DNA from: Symploca sp. SIO1C2
Lineage (GTDB): Bacteria > Cyanobacteriota > Cyanobacteriia > Cyanobacteriales > Coleofasciculaceae
Direction of reading: 5' to 3'
NCBI GenBank assembly: GCA_010672925.1
Contig: JAAHFP010000002.1
Coordinates: forward strand, 166,351-221,299
Length of the DNA: 54,949 nucleotides
Shown: positions 2,936-27,689 of the stretch, one piece after another
Position numbering within the stretch: the first letter of the stretch is position 1
How the letters are laid out: the number at the start of each line of letters is the position of its first letter
Translations under genes and position numbers: made by a program
The notes under the pieces: generated by a model
Databases searched by the model: none
The model's input: only the letters and a program-made list of their open reading frames with translations
Told to the model about the DNA's origin: nothing

Positions 2936-5320
2936 ATGGGTTGGAGAAAGATTATCACCTGGGTAACTCTTATCCTGTTAGGTATAGCAACGAGCATAAG
3001 TATTGCTGTATTCAACACAGCATACCAAGACAAAATAACTATAGCGATCGCTGTTCCCTTAACTAATGCGGGGGAAGCAACCCAAGCAGCTGGCAAATCA
3101 ATGCTTCAGGGTGTGGAACTATACATCAAAAAAGTAAACCAAGCTGGCGGTATTCAAGGTAAACGTCTGGATTTACAAGTCTATGACGACCAAGCTAAAC
3201 CTGAAGTAGCGGAGAAAATAGCTAAGGACATTGTTCGCTCCAAAGCAGTTGCCCTTATCGGTCATTATTCTAGCAGCACATCCCAAGCAGCAGGAAAAAT
3301 TTATCAAACCGCTGGTATTCCAGTTATCAGTGGTTCAGCGACTGCTGATGCAGTAACCCAAGGAAATGATTGGTACTTTCGCACGATTTTTACCGATAGC
3401 TTTCAGGGCAAATTTATTGCTTATTACCTCAACCAGGTTCTGGGTTACTCAAACATTGCCCTCATTCACGGCTACGATGCTTATGGTTTAGGCTTAGGCC
3501 AAACTATTGCAGCAGAATTCCAACAGTTGGGAGGCAACATAGTAGCCAAGTGGCAATTAGAACCAAATCAAACCAAAGCTACAGACGAGATTATTATTGA
3601 GGATTTACAGAGACTCAAAGATATTGGTCAACCGACTGAAGCAGAAGATTTACAGAAACTCAAAGATATCGGTCAGCCCACCAAAGCCGAGGATTTACAG
3701 AAACTTAAAGATACCCGTCAGCCGACCGAAGCAGTTGTCTTTGCAGCTAATCGAGATCAAGTGATCAACTTGATAGTGGAAATGAAAAGACGCAATCTGG
3801 ATTTGCCCCTATTTGGGGGCGATGATTTAGGGGATGTCGCTCTTGCTAAAAGCCTTGCTAAGCTTCCGGGCGAAGAGGAAAGTCGCGGCTTCTTTTCCAA
3901 TGGTCTTTACGCCACAGTACCACTGATTTATGACGCTGCTGATGATAAAACTCAACAATTTAGGGCAAAATTTGAGCAAACTTACGAAACTCCTCCAGGT
4001 TGGTCTGCCGCTTCTTACTATGACGCTATCGGTGCTATTGTAGAAGCAATTGATCGGACTCTATCGACGAATCAAGACTTACCGCAAGCGGTTTTTACCG
4101 GGAAAGATCTCAAAACAGACCGTTACTTAGTTAAAGAAGGTTTAGCGGGTATCAATAGCTCCGAAACCGCTGTCCAAACAGGAACAAGAACGTTTTACTT
4201 TAATCAAAACGGAAATGCTGTTGTCCCTATTTCGGTAGGACTGTTTGACAAGGGTCGTCTGGTGTCGGCTTTTACCCAGTTGCAAACAATTTCTAATATT
4301 AAGATAGTTCCCAATTTAGAGGAACAAATCAAAGCTGGTAAGATTTTGCCGTTTGACGATCAATACCTACAAAAAACCGATGTTGTTTACACGGGTCTGG
4401 ATATTAATAGGATTAGCTACCTAGATGAAAAGACCTCCAGCTATTTGGTAGATTTTTATCTGTGGTTTAGATACAACACCAATGTAGATATTGATAATAT
4501 TGAATTCCTTAACTATGGTATAAGTAGACTGGATTCTGGTGAGAAATTACAACTTACTGATCCCATCAAAGAAGAGGTAGAGGCTGGGGTTAAAAGTAAA
4601 GTATACCGGATTAAGGCCGATTTCCATGAAGAGTTTGACTTCCACAAGTACCCCTTCGACACTCAACTGTTGTCAGTGAGATTTCGACACGTCAACCTCA
4701 CCAGAGACAAGTTGATTTACGCCATAGACTTTGTCGGGATGCGGAATAATTCTTCCACCAGCAAGGAATTATCTACAGAATGGAAAGAGGAGGTTTTCAA
4801 GGAAATCAGCAATTGGAATCCTGACCAATTTGTCTTCTACCAAGATACCCTGGTAAATAAATCTACTTTAGGCGATCGCAGAGTTATTGACACCAACTCT
4901 GAGTTAAAATATTCCCAGTTTAATGCCATCATCCATATCAAACGGGACTTACTCGGTTTCAGTATCAAAAGTTTGCTACCCCTTTGGTTTTTTGTGGTTG
5001 TGGCATACCTGTTATTGTATCTTCCCTTCAAAGACCTCTCCGCTGAGGTATTGACTGGTCTCCTCCTGGCCATTGTATTCTACCATCTAAGCTTGCTAGA
5101 TGCTCTACCAGACGGAGTGGGTTACGTCGTTGCCCTAGACTATGGCTTTTACCTAATTTACTTCCTACTCGGTATAGAACTTGTAATAGTCATCATGGGG
5201 CAACAAGAGCTTTTCCAAAAGGATCAAATCAAACTCCGTCAATTAATCATGTTTGGCAGAATCTCTTTTCCCGCAATTATTTTGATCTTCTTTGCTGTGT
5301 TTTCCTGGGTGTATTTGTAG
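2936..5320 (+). CDS. Periplasmic-binding-protein / pentameric ligand-gated ion channel fusion
   Basis: The ATG at 2936 (794 aa) is preferred to the TTG at 2918, because the hydrophobic anchor starts just after it. Residue numbers here count from the TTG. Residues ~12-32 are a signal/anchor; ~38-455 are a type I periplasmic binding fold of the branched-chain amino-acid receptor kind (IAIAVPLTNAG, YDDQAKPEVAE, ALIGHYSSSTS, GIPVISGSATAD). Residues ~485-675 match the extracellular domain of pentameric ligand-gated channels, with the YPFDTQ signature at 578-583. Four membrane helices follow (~682-702, 711-728, 737-760, 780-799) with the M2-M3 LP at 730-731. This predicts an ion channel gated from outside by a small solute. 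Three 15-residue tandem repeats lie in the sensor domain. Ligand and ion selectivity cannot be read from the sequence. Confidence 0.82.
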   Translation: MGWRKIITWVTLILLGIATSISIAVFNTAYQDKITIAIAVPLTNAGEATQAAGKSMLQGVELYIKKVNQAGGIQGKRLDLQVYDDQAKPEVAEKIAKDIVRSKAVALIGHYSSSTSQAAGKIYQTAGIPVISGSATADAVTQGNDWYFRTIFTDSFQGKFIAYYLNQVLGYSNIALIHGYDAYGLGLGQTIAAEFQQLGGNIVAKWQLEPNQTKATDEIIIEDLQRLKDIGQPTEAEDLQKLKDIGQPTKAEDLQKLKDTRQPTEAVVFAANRDQVINLIVEMKRRNLDLPLFGGDDLGDVALAKSLAKLPGEEESRGFFSNGLYATVPLIYDAADDKTQQFRAKFEQTYETPPGWSAASYYDAIGAIVEAIDRTLSTNQDLPQAVFTGKDLKTDRYLVKEGLAGINSSETAVQTGTRTFYFNQNGNAVVPISVGLFDKGRLVSAFTQLQTISNIKIVPNLEEQIKAGKILPFDDQYLQKTDVVYTGLDINRISYLDEKTSSYLVDFYLWFRYNTNVDIDNIEFLNYGISRLDSGEKLQLTDPIKEEVEAGVKSKVYRIKADFHEEFDFHKYPFDTQLLSVRFRHVNLTRDKLIYAIDFVGMRNNSSTSKELSTEWKEEVFKEISNWNPDQFVFYQDTLVNKSTLGDRRVIDTNSELKYSQFNAIIHIKRDLLGFSIKSLLPLWFFVVVAYLLLYLPFKDLSAEVLTGLLLAIVFYHLSLLDALPDGVGYVVALDYGFYLIYFLLGIELVIVIMGQQELFQKDQIKLRQLIMFGRISFPAIILIFFAVFSWVYL
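3599..3733 (+). repeat. Three in-frame 45-bp tandem repeats in the sensor domain
   Basis: Units 3599-3643, 3644-3688 and 3689-3733 each encode a version of EDLQ-(R/K)-LKD-xx-QPT-x-A. The copies differ by a few substitutions, so the expansion is not the newest event. It lies between the two halves of the binding-protein fold. Confidence 0.9.
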
Positions 5321-5341
5321 ATGGTTAGAAAAATTATCAAA

Positions 5342-5380
5342 AGATTTTCTAGGTGACAATTGTTATACGTTAAACGATAT
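5342..5380 (+). pseudogene. Scrap of the CC2 secreted-protein gene
   Basis: These bases match about 2362-2400 within the CC2 gene and encode DFLGDNCYTLND against DFLGDNCYTFND. No gene surrounds it. It begins 21 bp after the channel gene stop, repeating the CC-gene/channel-gene adjacency in the opposite order. Confidence 0.7.
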
Positions 5381-5486
5381 TGTGGGTAAGAGTTATCGAA
5401 AAAAACCATGAGTAACCCCAATCTCAAGTATCGCGTTAAATTAACGGAATAAGGCAATTGTCCTAACCGCCTTGGCGATTGCGATA

Positions 5487-6115
5487 ACACTGAAACACAA
5501 GCAACCCATTGGGTACTAGGAATATCTTCCCCTACTCCCCTTGCCCCGACCTAAGTTATTATCCAAATGCGATATCCTCAAAGAATAAGAGCGATCGCTG
5601 ACAGGTTGACCTTCCCAAAAAACCTACATATCCCAATTATCCTCGCTAGGGTGAGATGGTACTAGACTTTAGCCGTACTCCAATGAGCTATCAATTAGCG
5701 TAACATTTGTTGGGTTTCGTTACCTCAACCCAACCTACGAGATTTGCGATCGCTCATCGTAGTATCTCTGAGAAGGGAACTCATTTACCATGACAATGAA
5801 AGTCAGGGAAATCGCACGCTATTGGAAATAAACCACAAAGGCACAAAGGACACAAAGAGAAAGATTTACGTCTAAAGCGTTGGGAGTTGTCACATGAGAT
5901 AAGAGAGAGTCTGTATCATTAGGCTTCTAGATTCTCACAAGCCGTACATTACCTTACAGGCGCACAACTTCTCCATTATTTATTATCTTAGCAAAAAATA
6001 ACACCGAAACACAAGCAATCCATTGAGTATTGGGATTATCTTCCCCTACTCCCCTTGCCTGACTAAAGAAATATTGTCCCAAGGCGATGTCCTCATACAG
6101 TCAAAGCGATCGCTT
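5487..6115. repeat. Two degraded copies of a ~115-bp segment in a 1.1-kb gene-free stretch
   Basis: 5487-5600 and 5998-6115 are diverged direct copies. On the minus strand both can be read as ARGVGED-(I/N)-P-(S/N)-TQW-(V/I)-ACVSVL, and copy 2 runs on to a stop, so this may be the end of a lost gene that I do not recognise. Between them, 5709-5734 is the second GTTGGGTT palindrome. Otherwise I see no intact gene between 5321 and 6444. Confidence 0.5.
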
Positions 6116-6444
6116 CTGATTTGATTAAACATCCTCGTTTTTGGGAATGGGGAATAGTAAATGAAGCTCACGGATGGGGAGAACTGCTATACCAACAATG
6201 AGAGTAATAAAGAGTAAAAAGCCAAGATAGAAACAACAAGGTCTTTTCCTGTTCCATTATTTCTTAAGAGTAAGAAATAATTAACTACTTTTATGACTTT
6301 TATAACCGACTATTAGTACTGAAAAAATGGGATGAAGTGCCGCAACATAGAAAAAGCATAAGAGAGGGAGGAATACGTTCCTCAACGAAGCAAACATGAG
6401 CAAACAGGTGCAGCAGAATATCCACGAAGAATAATGGTGTACAA

Positions 6445-6978
6445 ATGGATACAGGCCAAGTTACAAGAGTCACTTATTATAGGCTATTCCTGATGAGCAT
6501 TTTGCTCATTTTTTTGCTCCTAGTTGTGCAAAACCTTGGTTCGTCAGCTTTGGCCGCCGAATGGTGCTATCCGAAGAATTACAAATATTCTTTAAAGTGG
6601 TTAAAGTACAAAGGCGATTCCTGCTTAATTAATGTAGCTACCCAAAACAACAACTTGAAGTACGGCTATGCAATGTTGGAAACCACAGCAAAGGAAACAA
6701 ATTACAAGGAGTCAACAGCAACAATCTGGGTCTGGAAAGATGCTTTAGAAGCAGGCTACCTATTCAGAGGAGCTCCTTTTGGAAATAAAGAGGAGGTAAA
6801 GAAAGTAGTTATCTTGAGAGAAAATGTCAAGGATATGGCAGGAAACATCATGATGACATGGAGCAAACCATATTATTTGTATCCATCACTCTACGATAAT
6901 GGCACGGAAGAAGAGCCAACAAAAAGAGTGATAGAAATAGTTAATGAAGGCAATACAGGAATAACAGTACGGAGATAG
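6445..6978 (+). CDS. Secreted protein of unknown function
   Basis: A 177-residue protein. Residues ~12-38 are a strongly hydrophobic signal sequence (FLMSILLIFLLLVVQ) ending SALAAE, a good signal-peptidase I site. The mature part starts EWCYPKNY and has a second Cys in GDSCLIN, which suggests one disulfide; it is rich in Lys, Tyr and Asn and looks like a small beta-rich domain. The placing of the first Cys right after the cleavage site recalls the CC proteins upstream, but I see no convincing alignment. The start ATG has only a weak GAAGAA upstream. Its base composition is A-rich like the rest of this accessory locus. Confidence 0.65.
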   Translation: MDTGQVTRVTYYRLFLMSILLIFLLLVVQNLGSSALAAEWCYPKNYKYSLKWLKYKGDSCLINVATQNNNLKYGYAMLETTAKETNYKESTATIWVWKDALEAGYLFRGAPFGNKEEVKKVVILRENVKDMAGNIMMTWSKPYYLYPSLYDNGTEEEPTKRVIEIVNEGNTGITVRR

Positions 6979-7001
6979 GAATCGAAAAACCTAACACCCT
7001 A

Positions 7002-8024
7002 CTATCGACTAAATATCACTGTATGAGATCCAACAACTGGATTACGAGCAATCAAAGTACCTTCTAAGTCATTAATTTCTAATTTGCTAAAATCTAACTG
7101 CATAGCTTGAGCTAAAATTTGATCCGCTAATTTATCCTGTTGTTGAGCTTCTAGTTCATACCAGCTATCACTAACTTTAACAATAAGACGACTTTCTAGG
7201 AAATTAGCTTGGATTGCCTTAATTAGTCCCTCTCCATATTCCTCGGTAATTGCCGCAACTTGATTTCGGATGCCAGAAATCAGACTTTGCTCTGGGGTTA
7301 GCACTGGCGGGGGAGGTGGTTCTACGGCCACCGCTTTGGGTTGCTCTGGTGCCGTTAATTCTGGGGGAGCTGCAATAGTAGTGCTAGGAGGAGCTTTTTC
7401 AGCCTTTTTCGCTTTTTCCTCCTGTGGGGTCGTTTGGGGTAGTAATGCCACCGTTGTAAATAACACAGCTACCATAATTGTGGCAATCGCGGCAGTCAAT
7501 CCCCGATCCGATAGCTTTTCACTCCAAGATGCTGGGAATAGGGAACGGACTTTGGCTAACAATCCACCCCAAAAAGTCTGAAGAGGGTTAAAACTAGGAA
7601 GTAAGCGATCCGTTAGTTTGGTTTTCTGTGGTGGGGATACCCAATCATCAACAGGTTCTTCTGTGGTTTCTGGGGTAACTGTGGGGATATCAGAAGTAGA
7701 GGTAACCATTGCTGGTTCTCTGGTATCGTTAATATCAGGCTTTGCTGTAGTCGTAGAAAGAGCATCCTCTTTTGGCAAATCTGTAGTGGGAGGATCTTGC
7801 TCGTTTCCGTCAATTCCAGGAAGCAAGATGCTTTCACTAGTGTCATTGGTGTAACTTTGGGATGCTCCCGTCGTAGACAATTCAACAACAGGAGCAGGTT
7901 TAGTAACTGGTGCTGCCTCCAGTTTTGCCACTATTCCTTCTAACAGCTTAATCATACCTCGCAGTAATGCGATCGCTTGCGCTGTTATCAATGGCTTCTT
8001 TGGCTTCTGTTGGTTTTCTGACAT
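7002..8024 (-). CDS. Membrane-anchored protein with long disordered linker, unknown function
   Basis: A 340-residue protein. Residues ~1-40 form a basic amphipathic helix (LRGMIKLLEGIVAKLE). Residues ~40-135 are a Thr/Ser/Pro/Asp-rich disordered stretch. One membrane helix lies at ~175-195 (LTAAIATIMVAVLFTTVALL), then a Lys/Pro-rich linker (~200-245) with PPPPP, then a compact C-terminal domain (~248-340) of mixed helix and strand (SWYELEAQQQDKLADQIL). The layout is a cytoplasmic tail, one membrane span and a periplasmic domain on a Pro-rich stalk, as seen in many cyanobacterial envelope proteins. I do not recognise the C-terminal domain. It stands alone. Confidence 0.7.
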   Translation of the reverse strand: MSENQQKPKKPLITAQAIALLRGMIKLLEGIVAKLEAAPVTKPAPVVELSTTGASQSYTNDTSESILLPGIDGNEQDPPTTDLPKEDALSTTTAKPDINDTREPAMVTSTSDIPTVTPETTEEPVDDWVSPPQKTKLTDRLLPSFNPLQTFWGGLLAKVRSLFPASWSEKLSDRGLTAAIATIMVAVLFTTVALLPQTTPQEEKAKKAEKAPPSTTIAAPPELTAPEQPKAVAVEPPPPPVLTPEQSLISGIRNQVAAITEEYGEGLIKAIQANFLESRLIVKVSDSWYELEAQQQDKLADQILAQAMQLDFSKLEINDLEGTLIARNPVVGSHTVIFSR

Positions 8025-8113
8025 TTAAATTTACCTCCCAGGCAGCACCAATCTGCTTCTACTAAAATTAAAGCAACAAAAATGCAGCTATAAACAAAAA
8101 AGACTAGAACCAT

Positions 8114-16187: not shown

Positions 16188-19100
16188 CTACCACGGGCTA
16201 CCAATTAAGGTAAAACTAGACCAATAATGAGGATGGGATAAGTCTTCCTTGGAGATTTTTTGATCTGGATCTAGGGCTATACCTGATTGCTGAGGAGAGT
16301 AAAATAGCTGGTTATCTTCAATGTAGACTTCTCCATTTAACATGGCTAACTGTGCTTGTCTTAAGGCTTCAGCTTTGATAGGTACTTTGGCTAATTCATC
16401 ATAAAGCCTTGCCATCAATCCGACAGTTCTGGTATCGTTAACATCCCAAAGACTAGCTAAAACGGATTTAACTCCAGCTTGATAAGCTGAGCCCGCAAAA
16501 CCTAATTCGGCTTCGAGATTACCTAAGGCGGTTTCACAAGCACTCAAGACTAACAATTCCACCGGGAGGTTATTTAATCCTAGTCCTTGGATTGCTTCTC
16601 TATTTAATCTTAGGGGTTGGTCATAAAAATGGATAAAGGACTTGTCTGGAGAGCCTGATTTGAATTTAGCATGAGTGCCAAGGTGAACTATCCGAAAAGC
16701 TTGTTGTCTTTGTTGCTCGGTTAAACCATTGATAGTAAACTTATTGTCTAATGCTAGGATTCCTCCCCGTAATTGATAGATAGTACTGAGTTCTATTTCT
16801 ACACCCGGTAGACGAGAGAGGGGAGCAGGAAACTCTGTGGCTCCCATAGCTAGGACTGGAGATTCTTGAATATTAACGTAGTCGGTATTAACCAGTAAGC
16901 TGACACTAGGCATCAAACCGATGCTGTATTCTTCGACAATAAAATCCTCACCATCATGCAGTGCGGCTAAAGGTAGGGAACGTAGCTTTTCATCCATAAT
17001 GAACACTAGGTTCTCAATTTCTTGCTCTTCTAAATCTGCCTTTAAAGGAGCAACTAGCCAATTATAGAGTTGTTGAGCTGGTTCTAAGTACTTATCGTAG
17101 CCAATTTTGTTACGATATTTTAGTTCTCTGCGAAATTTTTTTGCAACAGGTTCCACTTTCTCTCTGGTGGCAGCATCAACCCGGTAACGAATTGGTTCTC
17201 CTTTAGAAGTTACTAAGATTAACTCTAACTTATCAGTGGATTGAGCTGATGGATTGAAGGAAGATGATAGAGCCTCAGCATTAGATTGTGTGGAATAATA
17301 GCCAGGGGAAGCGAAGTAGGCATAAATTAAAGCGGGTTTGACACCTGTCTGTTTCTCGATGTTAGTTACAGTCTCTTTAATTCTTGGTAGGGTGGCGGTG
17401 GAAGTATTGTCATTGCTACCGAGATAGTTTTGGTAGTTATTGGTAAAGCGAAACTCTACACCAGCTAATCCGATGTCAAAAAGTACTTGTGGAGGATCTT
17501 CGGAATCTGGAGTAGGGAAGGGAGGTGTTTGTGCTGGAGTAAAATCGATGGGATTAAAGGATGGATTAATAGGATCGTCAACCGAAACCGAGTTAGCCGC
17601 AGAAATAAGATCTGAATTCGTCAGATTGGAAGGAATGCTGATAATCTGAATATCCCCTACGACTTGGGTGAAGGGAAAAGATTGAACTGGCGCGATCGCA
17701 AAATTACTGCTAGTAATCGCTCCTGCGGTACCATTGATACTAGCATCGCCGACATTAAAGGGAATTATACCATTGCCACCGTGTCGGATAGTAATACTTC
17801 CTCCACTATTATTACCAAAGCTAGAAATACTGGTGTTTAAGCCACTAGCCCCAGTAAAGGTATCCGTGGCTCGAAAAAACCTGCCGGTAGTAATATCTAT
17901 ATTGCCGCCAAAGGTTCCTCCTTGAGCATTAATCGAACTAACTTGGATATCACCGGAAGGATCGAGAAACACATTCCCTCCTCTGCCAAACCTGCCACTA
18001 CTGTTGATTTGTTCGGTAGTAATTTGGATATCAGCTAAAATTCGGATATCGCCACCATCGGTAATTCCTGAAGTGTTGAGATTTCCTGTAACGATCGCGT
18101 CTGTGGTACTTTGAACAGTGATATCGCCACCATCGTTAATTCCTGAGGTGTCAAGATTTCCCGTTGTAATCGCGCCGGTGGTACTTTGAAGGGTAATATC
18201 TCGACCATCGGTAGTAATATCGCCAGTGGTAATATCTTGATTAGCTTCCACAGTAATCGTAGCGTTATCGCTTCCCGTGATATTACCTCCTGTGTGGGTA
18301 ATCGAACCCAAGCTATTCATCAAGGTTACTGGATCTTTAAAAGCAACATCCCCTGCTAGGGTAATAGCACCAGTAATCAGGATCGAAGTAAAGCCATCTT
18401 GTAGCAAACTGAGTTCCTCACTAGTCAAATCTAGAGTATTGGTATTACCACTATCATTACCACCAATGCGGATTGCTTGAGTCGAAGTTGCTGGTTGTAA
18501 AGTTAAGCTACCATTACCAGATATTTTGCCAGAAAAATTCACCTCATCTCCGATAAGGATGAGATTACCAGCACCACCGTCTAGATTACCAGTGAGGCTA
18601 CCATCGTTAGTGAATGAGAAGCTATCATCTAAATCACCTCCTGTCAGATTTTGAATATTGCTAAAGTTGATATTATTGAAATTTCCGCTATCAACTCCAG
18701 TAATATTCCAGGTACTAGGGGTATTGGATTCATCAATCAGGGTATTACTACCTCCTCCCCCATCAATACTAGTAACCTCTCCTCCCACGAAGCTAAAACT
18801 GTCGTTGAGATCACCCCCAATCAAGTTCTGAATATTGCTAAAGGCGATATTGTTGATAATTCCGCTATCAACTCCGGTGATGCTCCAAGTATTATCGATA
18901 GTAGAGTCACCAGTAAGAGTATTTTCACCCCCTCCACCATCAAGACTAGTAACACTTCCTCCTGCAAAAATAAAATTATCAGTGAGATTACCCCCAGTCA
19001 AGTTCTGAATATTGCTAAAGGTGATATTGTTGAGAGTTCCGCTATTAACTCCGGTAATATTCCAGGTGTTATCAAGATCCAGACTTGCCAAAGTTGAGCC

Positions 19101-21341
19101 ACCAGCAATGATCACAGGATCGCTGAAATTAGCACCTTCAGTAATAGTAATAGTACCAGTACCATCAGAGCGACCAATGGTAATTGAGCTAAAACCGTCT
19201 TGCAAGTTGGCGAGTTCCGTATTTAGTAAGTCGAGGCTGGCAGAATTAATGTTATCCCCAATACGAATTCCTTGATTTAGGGTTGCAGGTTGTATCAATA
19301 AAGTGCCATCGACACTGTTAAGTTCTCCCGGAAAATCAATTTCGTCACCTGTTAAGCTGATATTGCCACCATTAGTTCCACCACTGGCATTGACATCTCC
19401 GCCGATAGTAATTGTATCTTGACTTTCTAGGGTAATATCTCCTCCAGTGCCATCACCGATAACATTTCCTTGCAAGTCCTGGGCACCACCACTCGTATTG
19501 ATTTCAGCAGTCGTGATGCTACCATTAGCAATAAGAGCGATTGCGCCACCGTTACCGCCAATTACAGATGTGTTGAGTTCACCAGTTGTAATCTCGCCAC
19601 CAGTAGTAATAGTGATTTCCCCACCGTTACCAGAAGAGGATGCTGTTTGAATGCTGGATGTATTGATATTACCTACAGCAGTAAGAGTAATTTCCCCACC
19701 GTCACCAGAGAGAGAATTTGCCATAATATCCAAGGTAGTAATATTACCAGGAGCCTCCAAAATTACCGGACCAGCGTCACCTGTAGGATCAAAACCTGTG
19801 TTAATCATTCCGACTTGAATGCTTCCAGGTGGTTGCAAGGGTACTCCTGCTTCAAAGGTTGTTCCCGTTTCTATTACAGGAAGAACACTTACAGGATTAG
19901 CAAGCACAGTCCTACCTGCACGTAAAATCAACGCTGGACTGGTTCTCAACAGTTCCAAATCTGAACCAGGAGGCCCAGCAGGTAAAGTCGCATCTGGTCC
20001 TGTGATATTAATATTGCCACCTGTAATGCTCCCGGTTGCCTCCACCAACAAAGCTGGACCAGTATAATCACCAAATGTGACATCTCCAGCGGCACGAATA
20101 ATTGGATCATAGAGACTAAGAAAGTTGCTTGGTTCTCCTGACAAATTGAGTAGGGAAAAACTGCCGCTACTAGCAAAGTGAGCATCACCAGAGATAATGC
20201 CATCACTAACTAAACTGAGATTACCGCCACTAACAAACGGTGTCTGATCAAGATGATTTAGTGCCAGAATATCAATACTCTGATTACCCTGAATATAAAG
20301 ATTACCTCCAGCCTGAGCAATAAAAGGATTCGCTACACTATCCCTGATCAGTACCCTATTCTGTGCCAACAAATTCAAATCCCCTGTTGTCACCAACTGA
20401 CTCTCCACTAAAGTCAGATTACGGTAAGCTGAAAAAGTTACCGTTTCCCCTGCTACCTGATTTACCACCACATCACCAGTTTCTACCCCAATCCCAGAAT
20501 TACTCAGCCGAACTTCTCCAGAATTGTTAACTACCCCCAACTCCAGATTCCCACCATAAGCTAGCAATCCCGGTAACATTAATGGTGTAATCGGCACAGG
20601 ATTCCCCTGGATATCCGTAGGAGGTTCAATCTCCAAACTCAAAATATTTCCAGGTTGGCTCACTCGCACTAAACTAGTTCCTGGAACCGCTGCTACAGTA
20701 ACCGTACCTTCCGGTGCTGTTAGAGTACCAGTACTAACAACCGTTCCCCCAACTAAAGTCAAATTTTGTCCCTCTCCCACTGCCAGATTACCAGCATTAA
20801 TAATTCCCCCAGGGGAAGAACTATCAAAGCGAAAGGCATTAGGATAACCACTCAAATTAGTATAATCATTTACCCCAAAAGCATTAAACCAACCATCAGC
20901 AAAACCGATACCAGTAGCAGTAGTAGCGGTAAAATCAGCAGGAACATTCAACTGAGCACCATTACCAAAAATAATTCCTGCGGGATTCATTAAAAATAAA
21001 TTAGAATTACCCCCAGTAACTTGAATTAAACCATTAATTAACGAAGGATTACCACCAACTACTCTCCCCAAAATATTGTGAATTGTCGGTGAAGTAAGAA
21101 AATTCGCAGTTTGATTAGACTCTACATTAAACTGGTCAAAACTGTGGAAAAGATTATCTCCAGATACAGTACCAGCCTGAATATCCCAGCCATTACCATT
21201 AAGGATAACTGTTGTACCAGTACCATCCTGAGCAGGCGCGATCGCTTGAGCTATTACCAATGGCTTTACTTGCGCTGGTGTAGCGTGACTAATTCTGCCA
21301 ATAAGTAAAGTAGGAATAATTAGAGAGACAAATAATTTCAT
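16188..21341 (-). CDS. Filamentous-haemagglutinin-type secreted protein with C-terminal CHAT peptidase domain
   Basis: The Met at 21341 (1717 aa) is preferred; the 36 residues before it are translated GCATACGCCCATT repeats. A signal sequence ([15 protein letters not shown]) is followed by a two-partner-secretion haemagglutination domain (~25-180: [48 protein letters not shown]). A long beta-helix region contains three tandem ~60-residue repeats (WxITGVxSGxxNNIxFSNIQNL). The last ~330 residues are a CHAT caspase-like domain with His in LGTHAKF (1557) and Cys in LSACETA (1602). It should cross the outer membrane through a TpsB-type pore and carry a peptidase to the cell surface; no tpsB lies in the window. 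Confidence 0.87.
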
Positions 21342-21371
21342 AGAAGAATTGTTAGGAAACCGTAGGGGCGT

Positions 21372-21471
21372 ATTGCATACGCCCATTGCATACGCCCATT
21401 GCATACGCCTATTGCATATGCTCATTACATACACCCATGGCATACACATTAAGGGCGCAAGCTTTGCGCCC
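21372..21471. repeat. GCATACGCCCATT tandem repeat and GGGCGCAA hairpin
   Basis: About six units of the 13-bp CCCATTGCATACG family upstream of the haemagglutinin gene, then a hairpin GGGCGCAA-GCT-TTGCGCCC at about 21453-21471. Confidence 0.8.
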
Positions 21472-25220: not shown

Positions 25221-27689
25221 TTAATCAACCCCTTGAGGCAATAGTTCTCGTTTCTCACTGGGAAGTACCTTAACTTTGCCTTCTTCATCAACATCGACAA
25301 CAGCAGTATCTCCATCTTTGATGCTACCACCGAGGATTTCCTCTGCCAGAACATCTTCCAACAACCGCATTATTGCTCGACGTAAAGGACGTGCACCATA
25401 GCTGGGGTTATAACCCTCTTCTACTAACCGCTCTTTGAACCGGTCTGTAACTTCTAAGATGATACCCTGTTCAGTTAAGCGACTAAAGACTTCTTTGAGT
25501 AAGATATCAGCGATGGATTTAATCTCCTCTTTGTTGAGTTGACGGAAGACAATAATTTCATCCAAGCGGTTGAGGAACTCTGGACGGAAATATTGCTTGA
25601 GTTCTTCGTTAACCAAGGAACGGATACGATTGTACTGGGACTCAGCTTGATTATCACTAAACTCGAAGCCGAGACTACCGCCACCTTTTTCGATGACCTT
25701 AGAACCGATATTAGAGGTCATAATCAGTAGGGTATTTTTGAAATCTACTGTTCGACCCTTAGCATCGGTAAGACGCCCATCTTCCAAAATTTGCAGTAGC
25801 ATATTGAAGACATCAGGGTGAGCCTTCTCAATTTCGTCCCACAAAACTACTGTGTAAGGACGACGCCGCACTGCTTCTGTAAGCTGTCCTCCTTCGTTGT
25901 AGCCGACATATCCTGGAGGAGATCCAATCAGTTTACTGACGGTATGACGTTCCATGTATTCCGACATATCCAAGCGAATCATCGCTTCTTCTGAACCGAA
26001 GAAGTAAGCTGCTAAAGATTTTGCCAGTTCTGTTTTACCAACCCCTGTAGGACCGGAGAAGATAAAACTAGCAATGGGACGATTGGGACTCTTTAAACCG
26101 ACTCTTGCCCGACGAATGGCACGGGAGACGGCTTTAACTGCATCCTCTTGACCAATTAGGCGATTATGCAGTGTATCTTCCATATGCAGCAGTTTCTCAG
26201 ACTCAGATTCGGTGAGTTTCTGTACTGGTACACCAGTCCAAGAAGCTACAATATGGGCAATGTCCTCTTCATCTACTTGCGGAGAGGCATCCTCATTGCC
26301 ACCTTCGGTCTTTTTATTCTGAGCGATCGAGCGGATTTCTGCCTTGATTTCCATCTCGCGATCGCGCAATTCCCCTGCTTTATCAAAATCTTGGGAACGA
26401 ACTGCATCGTCTTTATCTTTTAGTACCTGACGCAGTTCCTTATCCAACTCTTTAGCTGCTGGTGGTAGCTGGGAGTTAATTAGGCGTACCCGGCTGCCTG
26501 CTTCATCGATTAAATCAATAGCTTTATCTGGTAAGTAGCGGTCTGAAATATAGCGGTCTGAAAGTTTAGCTGCTGCTTCGAGGGCTTCATCCAAAATTTT
26601 CAACTTGTGATGTTGCTCATAGCGCTCCCGTAAGCCGTAGAGAATCTCTATAGTTTCGTCAACGGAGGGTTCCCCTACCATTACTGGTTGAAAACGACGC
26701 TCCAGAGCAGCATCTCGTTCGATATGCTTACGGTACTCATCTAAGGTCGTAGCACCAATACATTGCAGTTCTCCTCTAGCTAAGGCTGGCTTGAGGATAT
26801 TAGCGGCATCAATCGCCCCTTCTGCTGCACCAGCACCAATCAAAGTATGGACTTCGTCAATCACCAGGATAACGTTCCCAGCTTGACGAATTTCATCCAT
26901 AATTTTCTTGAGGCGCTCTTCAAACTCACCCCGGTACTTAGTACCAGCCACGAGTAAACCGATATCCAGGGTAACGACGCGCTTTTCTTCTAGAATGTCA
27001 GGGATATCATTATTGGCAATTCGTTGGGCTAGACCTTCCGCGATCGCGGTTTTACCAACCCCTGGTTCCCCAATTAATACTGGGTTATTCTTAGTGCGGC
27101 GTCCTAAGATCTGAATGACCCGTTCTATTTCTTTAACCCTGCCAACTACTGGATCCAGCTTGCCTTCCCCTGCCATAATGGTCAAGTTTGAGCCAAACTC
27201 ATCCAATGTCGGAGTTTTGGTTCGACCCTGAGATGCTCCTGCCGAGACTTCTGCCGTCTCACCAAGCATCCTGATAACTTGTGTCCTGACTTTAGATAAG
27301 TCTACTCCTAGGTTTTCCAAAACTCTAGCAGCAACTCCTTCTCCTTCTCGAATTAAACCCAGAAGTAAATGTTCTGTGCCAATATAGTTATGCCCTAGCT
27401 GACGTGCCTCTTCTAGGGATAGCTCCAGAACCCGCTTTGCCCTAGGGGTAAAGGGAATTTCTACAGCAACAAACCCTGAGCCCCTGCCAATAATTTTCTC
27501 GACTTCAATCCGGGCATCTTTAAGATTGACACCCATTGACTTGAGGACTTTGGCAGCGACGCCCGTTCCCTCTCCAATCAAACCCAGGAGGATCTGCTCG
27601 GTGCCAACAAAGTTGTGCCCCAGGCGACGTGCCTCTTCCTGGGCCAGCATAATTACCTTAATGGCCTTTTCTGTAAAGCGTTCAAACAT
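25221..27689 (-). CDS. clpC: ATP-dependent Clp protease ATP-binding subunit ClpC
   Basis: An 822-residue Hsp100 protein of full length. It has a double Clp N-domain (~1-145), first AAA+ module with Walker A GEPGVGKT (~207-214), a UVR/coiled middle region (~430-465, [17 protein letters not shown]), and second AAA+ module with Walker A GPTGVGKT near residue 550. ClpC unfolds substrates and feeds them to ClpP/ClpR; in cyanobacteria it is essential and is close to the chloroplast form. The C-terminus is rich in acidic residues ([12 protein letters not shown]). An extended -10 lies ~40 nt upstream and a strong terminator follows. Ordinary core gene. Confidence 0.98.

Follow-up and report, generated by a model that had tools for sequence, protein, structure and literature searches.

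Does a gene of the cyanobacterium Symploca sp. SIO1C2 encode an ion channel with a built-in solute sensor, and what would such a protein bind and conduct? The gene lies on contig JAAHFP010000002.1 of assembly GCA_010672925.1, in a stretch of 54,949 nucleotides (positions 166,351 to 221,299, forward strand) that was analysed as a whole and that we call the window. An original prediction, made from the letters alone, had claimed that one frame here joins a type I periplasmic binding protein (PBP-I) fold to a complete pentameric ligand-gated ion channel (pLGIC) subunit. This claim held: by sequence comparison, the window protein is a pLGIC subunit, with an extracellular domain (ECD) and a four-helix transmembrane domain (TMD), joined to a type I periplasmic binding domain. 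Its layout in window coordinates is as follows.

2936..5320, + strand: gene for the PBP-I::pLGIC fusion subunit (open reading frame, Pfam, profile search)
2936..3025, + strand: hydrophobic N-terminal helix, residues 1-30 (helix 3-22 in the AlphaFold2 model, at low confidence)
3026..4330, + strand: type I periplasmic binding (Venus-flytrap) domain, residues 31-465 (Peripla_BP_6, phmmer against PDB chains, Foldseek)
4358..4945, + strand: pLGIC extracellular beta-sandwich domain, residues 475-670 (profiles A1 and A6, AlphaFold2 model)
4946..5317, + strand: four-helix channel domain M1-M4, residues 671-794 (profiles A1 and A3, AlphaFold2 model)

Residues 35-377 matched the Pfam family Peripla_BP_6 (E = 1.3e-36, 127.4 bits; cut-off 31.7). 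In Foldseek searches (best E = 3.3e-25) the top fold neighbour was a leucine-bound binding protein, and metabotropic glutamate receptor (mGluR) domains were also among the matches; all 50 matches listed per model were to binding domains, so this search is uninformative on the channel half. For that half, the Pfam models Neur_chan_LBD and Neur_chan_memb gave no match to the window protein above their curated cut-offs. Of the Pfam families that the original prediction had named for the two halves, Peripla_BP_6 was therefore borne out and Neur_chan was not. Among relatives, G024b scored 24.1 bits with the LBD model (cut-off 26) and a Streptomyces protein (L078) 29.7 bits with the memb model (cut-off 28.1). 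Since the profile evidence given below is strong, we read the Neur_chan silence as a sign of narrow models. A Neur_chan_LBD search of the window genome also returned nothing, which is no evidence of absence, as 14 controls were equally silent.

As a single sequence the channel half gave modest evidence: the NCBIfam model TIGR00860 LIC matched residues 483-794 alone with E = 1.4e-4, and phmmer against PDB chains returned GABA-A alpha (8e-4), 9ftg and 6v4a (about 3e-3; both of which we take to be DeCLIC) and a GLIC-type chain (7e-3). With the profiles of relatives the evidence was decisive. Profile A1 (11 rows) matched GLIC with E = 2e-14 in separate ECD (10-129) and TMD (185-317) stretches. The ECD-only profile A6, which consisted of the window and 30 of the 42 loci with a four-transmembrane (4TM) pore and left that pore out, reached ELIC and GLIC at about 1e-6. 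The full-length profile A3 (53 rows) matched both 4gnr (LivJ; 3.8e-48) and a GLIC/GABA-A chimera (4.5e-24, over profile positions 414-716). An AlphaFold2 monomer on A3 (mean pLDDT 88.8, pTM 0.85) has an N-terminal domain in which helices and strands alternate, a middle part rich in strands that forms the ECD (strands between residues 470 and 670) and four C-terminal transmembrane helices within 672-793 (672-695, 703-723, 729-756 and 764-793). These results agree with the YPFDTQ signature, at residues 572-577, and the four C-terminal helices that had been predicted. The C-terminal part has the significant pLGIC match whose absence would have spoken against the original prediction.

The gene itself appears sound. 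From its ATG start the frame encodes 794 residues plus a stop codon, uninterrupted by other stops, and an in-frame TTG at 2918 gives a longer reading of 800 residues; residues 1-30 would act as an export signal or membrane anchor. The ratio of nonsynonymous to synonymous substitution rates (dN/dS) against Microcoleus FACHB-DQ6 was 0.20 for the binding domain, 0.16 for the ECD and 0.25 for the TMD; unsaturated values against UBA11153 and Okeania SIO2C9 ranged from 0.12 to 0.27. The three domains are alike under purifying selection. Promoter-like sites (8, versus 7.1 in shuffles, sd 3.0) and terminator-like sites (1, versus 3.1 in shuffles) were not above chance in number.

The search for relatives used two peptide patterns from the channel half, the binding domain playing no part in it, and gave 74 loci on named genomes. 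Local hidden Markov model (HMM) classes assigned 42 of these to the PBP-ECD-4TM layout, 10 to PBP-ECD-4TM-SBP, with a second, substrate-binding protein (SBP) domain at the C-terminus, and 17 to PBP-ECD-MscS, in which the pore is of MscS type. The remainder were three channel frames without an in-frame PBP (one ends at a contig end, two are closely preceded by a PBP frame) and two frames cut before the pore. The binding domain was thus in frame at 69 of the 74 loci and just upstream at two, the other three being cut by contig ends. Three loci at contig ends (L047, L099, L106) and two whose PBP is encoded by its own frame upstream (L080, L104) stand outside the motif counts given below. Those counts refer to 78 rows, namely 69 of the 74 loci, the window and eight rows from other searched genomes, which fall into 48 4TM, 12 4TM+SBP and 18 MscS rows; unless stated otherwise, counts follow this order. 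They are not independent, since row G012 is identical to L036, and L037-L039 and G016 are nearly so.

The record titles name, among others, cyanobacteria, giant sulfur bacteria, Desulfobacterota, Chloroflexota, Verrucomicrobiota, Streptomyces, a Leptospiraceae metagenome-assembled genome and a cable bacterium. By channel gene, the closest named relatives are cyanobacterial (Microcoleus FACHB-DQ6, 73% over aligned columns). Among 97 genomes, G073, G012, G019, G016, G008, G018, G022, G069 and G084 shared with the window genome a frame that has both halves, and G046 and G024 had two such frames in tandem. In a phylum-wide search the channel profile (E<=1e-3) matched 26 of 386 genomes. Strong matches in frames of at least 750 residues occurred in seven of them (G000, G008, G022, G046, G073, G258, G405); three weak matches lay in frames of 698-785 residues, and most of the others were stand-alone channels in frames of about 330-400 residues. 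Stand-alone pLGIC-like genes of 355 residues were also seen at L026:4791-5855 and L027:4895-5959, with frames nearby on both sides that by eye resemble ABC-2-type permease subunits, and with another long frame between in L026. Some members differ at the N-terminal side: six from Streptomyces, Chloroflexota/Thermomicrobia and Verrucomicrobiota (L078, L081, L083, L084, L086, L089) have about 120-270 extra residues before the binding domain, with weak TPR matches in L081, L086 and L089. In the cable bacterium Electrothrix (L104) the PBP (4538-5986) and channel (6022-6918) are separate frames 36 bp apart, as a natural split or through a frameshift.

A second PBP-ECD-4TM frame was present in the fetched stretch at 10 of 52 4TM-type loci (L042, L050, L052, L062, L066, L069, L074, L075, L079, L082); the second copy at L079 ends at a contig end, and those at L050 and L052 carry an SBP too. 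Such loci would allow heteromers. No tandem second copy was found in the window. The ECD profile had one match in the window genome, which makes a homomer the simplest assembly for the window protein.

The residues that couple an ECD to a pLGIC pore are in place in the window protein.

4649..4666, + strand: YPFDTQ Pro-loop, residues 572-577 (P573 in 48/48, 12/12 and 0/18 rows)
4943..4945, + strand: pre-M1 arginine R670 (47/48, 12/12 and 1/18 rows)
5042..5104, + strand: M2 pore helix as modelled, residues 703-723 (AlphaFold2; in the GLIC alignment Glu704 is 2' and Leu711 is 9')

Besides the Pro-loop (Y572-Q577) and R670, the pLGIC hallmarks comprise the M1 proline P682 (42/48 4TM and 12/12 4TM+SBP rows) and a hydrophobic residue at 9', L711, which is Leu, Ile or Met in 45 of 48 4TM rows. 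The coupling set P573, D/E575 and R670 occurred together in 47/48, 12/12 and 0/18 rows. It is therefore kept with the 4TM pore and lost with the MscS pore, as expected if these residues serve the four-helix pore. Three other ECD residues (D506, W510, F511) are invariant in all 78 rows. In GLIC, D32 and D122 are salt-bridged to R192 at the junction of ECD and pore, and E222 (-2') is the key element of the selectivity filter (PMC5760087). In GLIC register the window M2 has Asp at -2', Glu at 2', Gly at 6', Leu at 9' and Phe at 13'. All 11 close rows have an acid at 2', and 52 of 60 four-TM rows have one at the M2 base (columns 699-704). As most rows carry this acid, most members may conduct cations.

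The pocket of the binding domain could be compared at four positions.

3272..3274, + strand: pocket residue S113 (kept in 43/48, 9/12 and 16/18 rows)
3341..3343, + strand: pocket residue T136 (39/48, 5/12 and 16/18 rows)
3482..3484, + strand: pocket residue Y183 (43/48, 6/12 and 16/18 rows)
3821..3823, + strand: pocket acid D296 (38/48, 4/12 and 16/18 rows)
3602..3734, + strand: within the same domain, a 45-bp tandem repeat of three in-frame copies (single copy or gap in the other rows of alignment A2)

When aligned to 2liv (LivJ), S113, T136 and Y183 fell on positions that bind the ligand through its alpha-amino and carboxyl groups. We take the LivJ equivalents of the four residues to be Ser79, Thr102, Tyr150 and, for D296, Glu226. 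The window pocket thus has the residues for recognition of an alpha-amino acid, and the joint motif of [ST], [ST], [YFW] and [DE] was found in 36/48, 3/12 and 15/18 rows. For comparison, PMC2680970 describes eight pocket residues, five of them main, and gives the mGlu1 pocket as Ser165, Thr188, Asp208, Tyr236 and Asp318. Because these positions are present in the window protein and conserved in other rows, an amino acid is the likely ligand of its predicted sensor and of much of the family.

We infer the pentamer, its ligand, its direction of gating, its ion selectivity and its physiological role as follows. The protein would form a homopentamer in the cytoplasmic membrane, each subunit bearing an outward-facing Venus flytrap. 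Binding of a small amino-acid-like solute would close the flytrap, and this movement would pass through the linker to the pLGIC beta-sandwich. The beta-sandwich would then act through the contact of Pro-loop and pre-M1 arginine on M2 and alter the opening of the pore. External amino-acid level would in this way be converted to ion flux. A homopentameric, probably cation-selective channel with five amino-acid-binding flytraps is, from homology and modelling, what we consider the probable nature of the window protein.

Several observations weigh against this scheme. In the wide set no more than 19 of 48 4TM rows have Glu at 2', so that it was dropped as a family hallmark, and three of 60 four-TM rows have a net positive M2 base. 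D296 is paired with Asn in 4mlc, and its pairing with Asp in 4gnr falls in a stretch that HMMER aligned weakly. The joint pocket motif is absent from 12/48, 9/12 and 3/18 rows, for which reason the ligand class would not be uniform across the family. No immediate neighbour of the window gene matched the flanking frames of the compared loci (first 30 kb). Moreover, DeCLIC, the only pLGIC with a partly characterised N-terminal domain, has gating kinetics that this domain affects (PMC9897478, PMC12664993), and such an effect fits modulation as well as gating.

This last point leads to an alternative that we regard as unlikely, though it deserves to be taken seriously: another ligand would open the channel at the classical site between ECDs, and the binding domain would do no more than concentrate a ligand or tune gating, a role that Tasneem et al. 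(PMC549065) proposed for receptors of chemotaxis type. The aromatic residues W627 (48/48 4TM and 12/12 4TM+SBP rows) and Y659 (41/48 and 9/12) of the ECD are conserved, and stand-alone relatives exist that have no binding domain; these points and the DeCLIC kinetics speak for it. The binding domain was nonetheless in frame at 69 of the 74 loci even though these had been found by the channel half, and it stays together with the ECD through an exchange of pores (see below), which suggests that it is essential. If the four-helix part merely relayed a signal to a partner, a pore base that varies across the wider family would be understandable; since the window protein has no cytoplasmic output domain in Pfam, and the hydrophobic 9' residue and the M2-base acids are kept in most rows, we give such a non-conducting receptor very little credence. 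A membrane-anchored substrate-binding protein of an ATP-binding cassette (ABC) transporter, with the channel half as a mere anchor or degenerate remnant, seems if anything slightly less credible. Its binding domain is indeed LivJ-like and the RefSeq name of an Azospirillum relative is ABC transporter substrate-binding protein, but the pore and coupling residues are conserved and under selection, and no ABC permease or ATPase gene was among the seven window neighbours scanned with Pfam. Finally, the tandem repeat marks a recent change in the binding domain, of the kind that a frame error, a chimeric assembly or a pseudogene might show. The same layout, however, recurs in many independent genomes, and the frame is stop-free with dN/dS of 0.16-0.25 in the three domains against Microcoleus; recurrence and selection refute a chance or broken fusion, to which we assign a negligible chance.

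A further aspect comes from the MscS-pored relatives. Here the PBP and a pLGIC-type ECD sit on an MscS-type pore (L085, L088, L090-L098, L100-L103, L107 and L108), with further members at L023:663-3569 (- strand) and L139:2672-5740 on an Azospirillum B510 plasmid. The Pfam domain MS_channel_2nd was found in all seven such proteins scanned (L023, L097, L091, L101, L108, L095 and the Azospirillum B510 gene) and a C-terminal cNMP_binding domain in four (L097, L091, L101, L108). Misassembly is unlikely, since the replicons that carry L097 (a chromosome) and L139 (a plasmid) are complete. An ECD profile of MscS-type rows alone (A5; the 17 MscS loci without L102) matched no PDB chain; the link of this ECD to pLGICs runs through the 4TM rows, to which it is connected by hhalign (E = 2.5e-65, 33% identity) and by direct tblastn. 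An AlphaFold2 model of the MscS type (L097) was only fair (pLDDT 77, pTM 0.56) and supports no claim. On the Azospirillum plasmid (L139:1-8384) the MscS-pored gene has a VCBS-domain protein on one side and an ABC/HlyD pair on the other, of which the HlyD is annotated as a type I secretion adaptor.

A quick, unrooted maximum-likelihood tree of the 78 rows was built from the PBP and ECD after the Pro-loop columns had been taken out; the alignment stopped short of R670. The MscS label required two changes on it, versus a shuffled mean of 16.3. All MscS rows but one, 17 of 18, grouped together (95) and are nested among 4TM rows; the exception, L108, has a very long branch and its placement is unsure. 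As the branches around this nesting have support of 83-96 and the root was not inferred, a single transfer from 4TM to MscS pore is likely but no more than that. It seems moderately likely, on these comparisons, that the PBP and pLGIC beta-sandwich form a self-contained, portable gating head that moved once or very few times from the 4TM pore to an MscS-type pore, which in some members is followed by a C-terminal cyclic-nucleotide domain, and that shed exactly the Pro-loop and pre-M1 arginine, which couple it to the 4TM pore. If so, the head on an MscS pore would be a ligand-gated MscS channel, and an ECD of neurotransmitter-receptor type could drive a pore of another fold and symmetry, MscS being a heptamer. 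No report of these MscS-pored forms, or of the SBP-tailed forms, was found in search listings of open-licence papers or in the minority of those papers that were opened, which is not proof of their absence from print.

In the SBP-tailed forms, a C-terminal SBP_bac_1 domain was recognised by Pfam in both L021 genes, the first L022 gene and L049 (E 4e-32 to 3e-36). These proteins have a binding protein at either end, type I at the N-terminus and SBP_bac_1 after M4 (L021:903-4463 and 4553-8101, - strand; L022:4499-8131; L049:4702-8244). On the tree the 4TM+SBP label changed seven times, four of them forced by starred branches, which means that the SBP fusion was gained or lost several times. Two genomes, G084 and G022, have a gene of the SBP family immediately upstream of the fusion, and it overlaps the longest reading of the fusion gene. 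The C-terminal fusions (10 of the 74 loci) together with these adjacent genes suggest a Rosetta-stone link to a second binding protein. Homologs of the adjacent SBP were found in 7 of 12 genomes searched, the window genome included, and next to the fusion in only two of the 12 (G084, G022). An HMM from the fused SBPs missed the adjacent genes at E<=1e-5, so the fused SBPs look like a separate subfamily. Sensing has probably shifted in the SBP-carrying branch, perhaps to the second binding protein.

Gene neighbourhood was rejected as a guide to function, as the only matches were distant in position. The window frame at 25221-27689 has a counterpart of 95% identity in Microcoleus (L035), some 3 kb upstream of the channel gene there, yet lies 20 kb from the window channel. 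The 1753-residue protein encoded at 16188-21449 (- strand) has a TPS secretion domain and carries a CHAT domain at its C-terminus; frames near the channel genes of L067, L095 and L108 are 31-35% like it. Upstream of the channel gene, frames 26-982, 1419-1841 and 2150-2647 share, by eye, a CC...C-type cysteine pattern; the first has a Lipase_3 match and the other two are small and secreted-looking. Elsewhere in the window genome, other type I binding domains are C-terminal on AAA-type ATPase proteins (L146:3423-6464, - strand; L147:1212-3905), of which one also has TPRs.

The fusion type itself is already known. Tasneem et al. (2004; PMC549065) reported PBP-I::pLGIC proteins in the alphaproteobacteria Magnetospirillum magnetotacticum and Bradyrhizobium japonicum, gave the cyanobacterial pLGIC members a simple layout and noted that genes for type II binding proteins (PBP-II) adjoin some pLGIC genes. 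A 2022 review states that many prokaryotic pLGIC N-terminal domains resemble periplasmic binding proteins (PMC9221113); terminal domains were deliberately set aside in PMC4795631, and little is said to be known about the extra N-terminal domains in PMC12664993. What is new relative to the 2004 paper is the cyanobacterial setting. The window protein is a well-modelled target, with predicted pocket residues and ligand class, for what such N-terminal domains sense, and the wider family offers a natural experiment in domain coupling, with the same head on 4TM and MscS pores. At least one such gene, that of Azospirillum, has been given the name of a plain ABC binding protein, and others may be hidden in the same way.

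Compared with known systems, the window protein resembles the Magnetospirillum and Bradyrhizobium fusions, which by description likewise have a type I binding domain at the N-terminus, the ligand-binding domain of a pLGIC and a 4TM pore, and differ in being alphaproteobacterial; the one alphaproteobacterial relative examined here, Azospirillum B510 (L139), unlike the window protein has an MscS pore. GLIC and ELIC have a homologous ECD and four-helix domain, and the Pro-loop, pre-M1 arginine and M1 proline occur in the family, whereas the solved chains matched, of about 310-320 residues, lack a binding-protein domain. At 2' of M2, in the register of the A1 alignment, the window Glu stands opposite a Thr of GLIC, presumably Thr226. 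DeCLIC, whose TMD was matched at about 3e-3 by the single sequence, is likewise a pLGIC with a large extra N-terminal part, but this consists of two jelly-roll lobes and not a Venus flytrap. LivJ-type proteins and the ligand-binding domains of mGluRs share the fold and pocket positions; the former are free in the periplasm and the latter linked to a G-protein-coupled receptor, whereas the window domain is linked to a channel. The MscS-pored sister proteins share their pore with MscS and cyclic-nucleotide-gated MscS-like channels (which we take to be bCNG), as well as the cNMP_binding domain in four of seven; they add the PBP and ECD head, and the window protein has no MscS part.

Membership of the ionotropic glutamate receptors was considered and rejected, as the Pfam scan of the window protein contained no PBP-II family and its channel half is that of a pLGIC. 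The parallel with those receptors that the original prediction drew stands in that unrelated pores have recruited the same PBP-I fold; as a point in itself it is not new, having been made already in PMC549065. As described there, animal NMDA-type receptors resemble the window protein in having a PBP-I domain N-terminal to the channel, but they have an added PBP-II domain into which their channel is inserted, where the window protein has a pLGIC.

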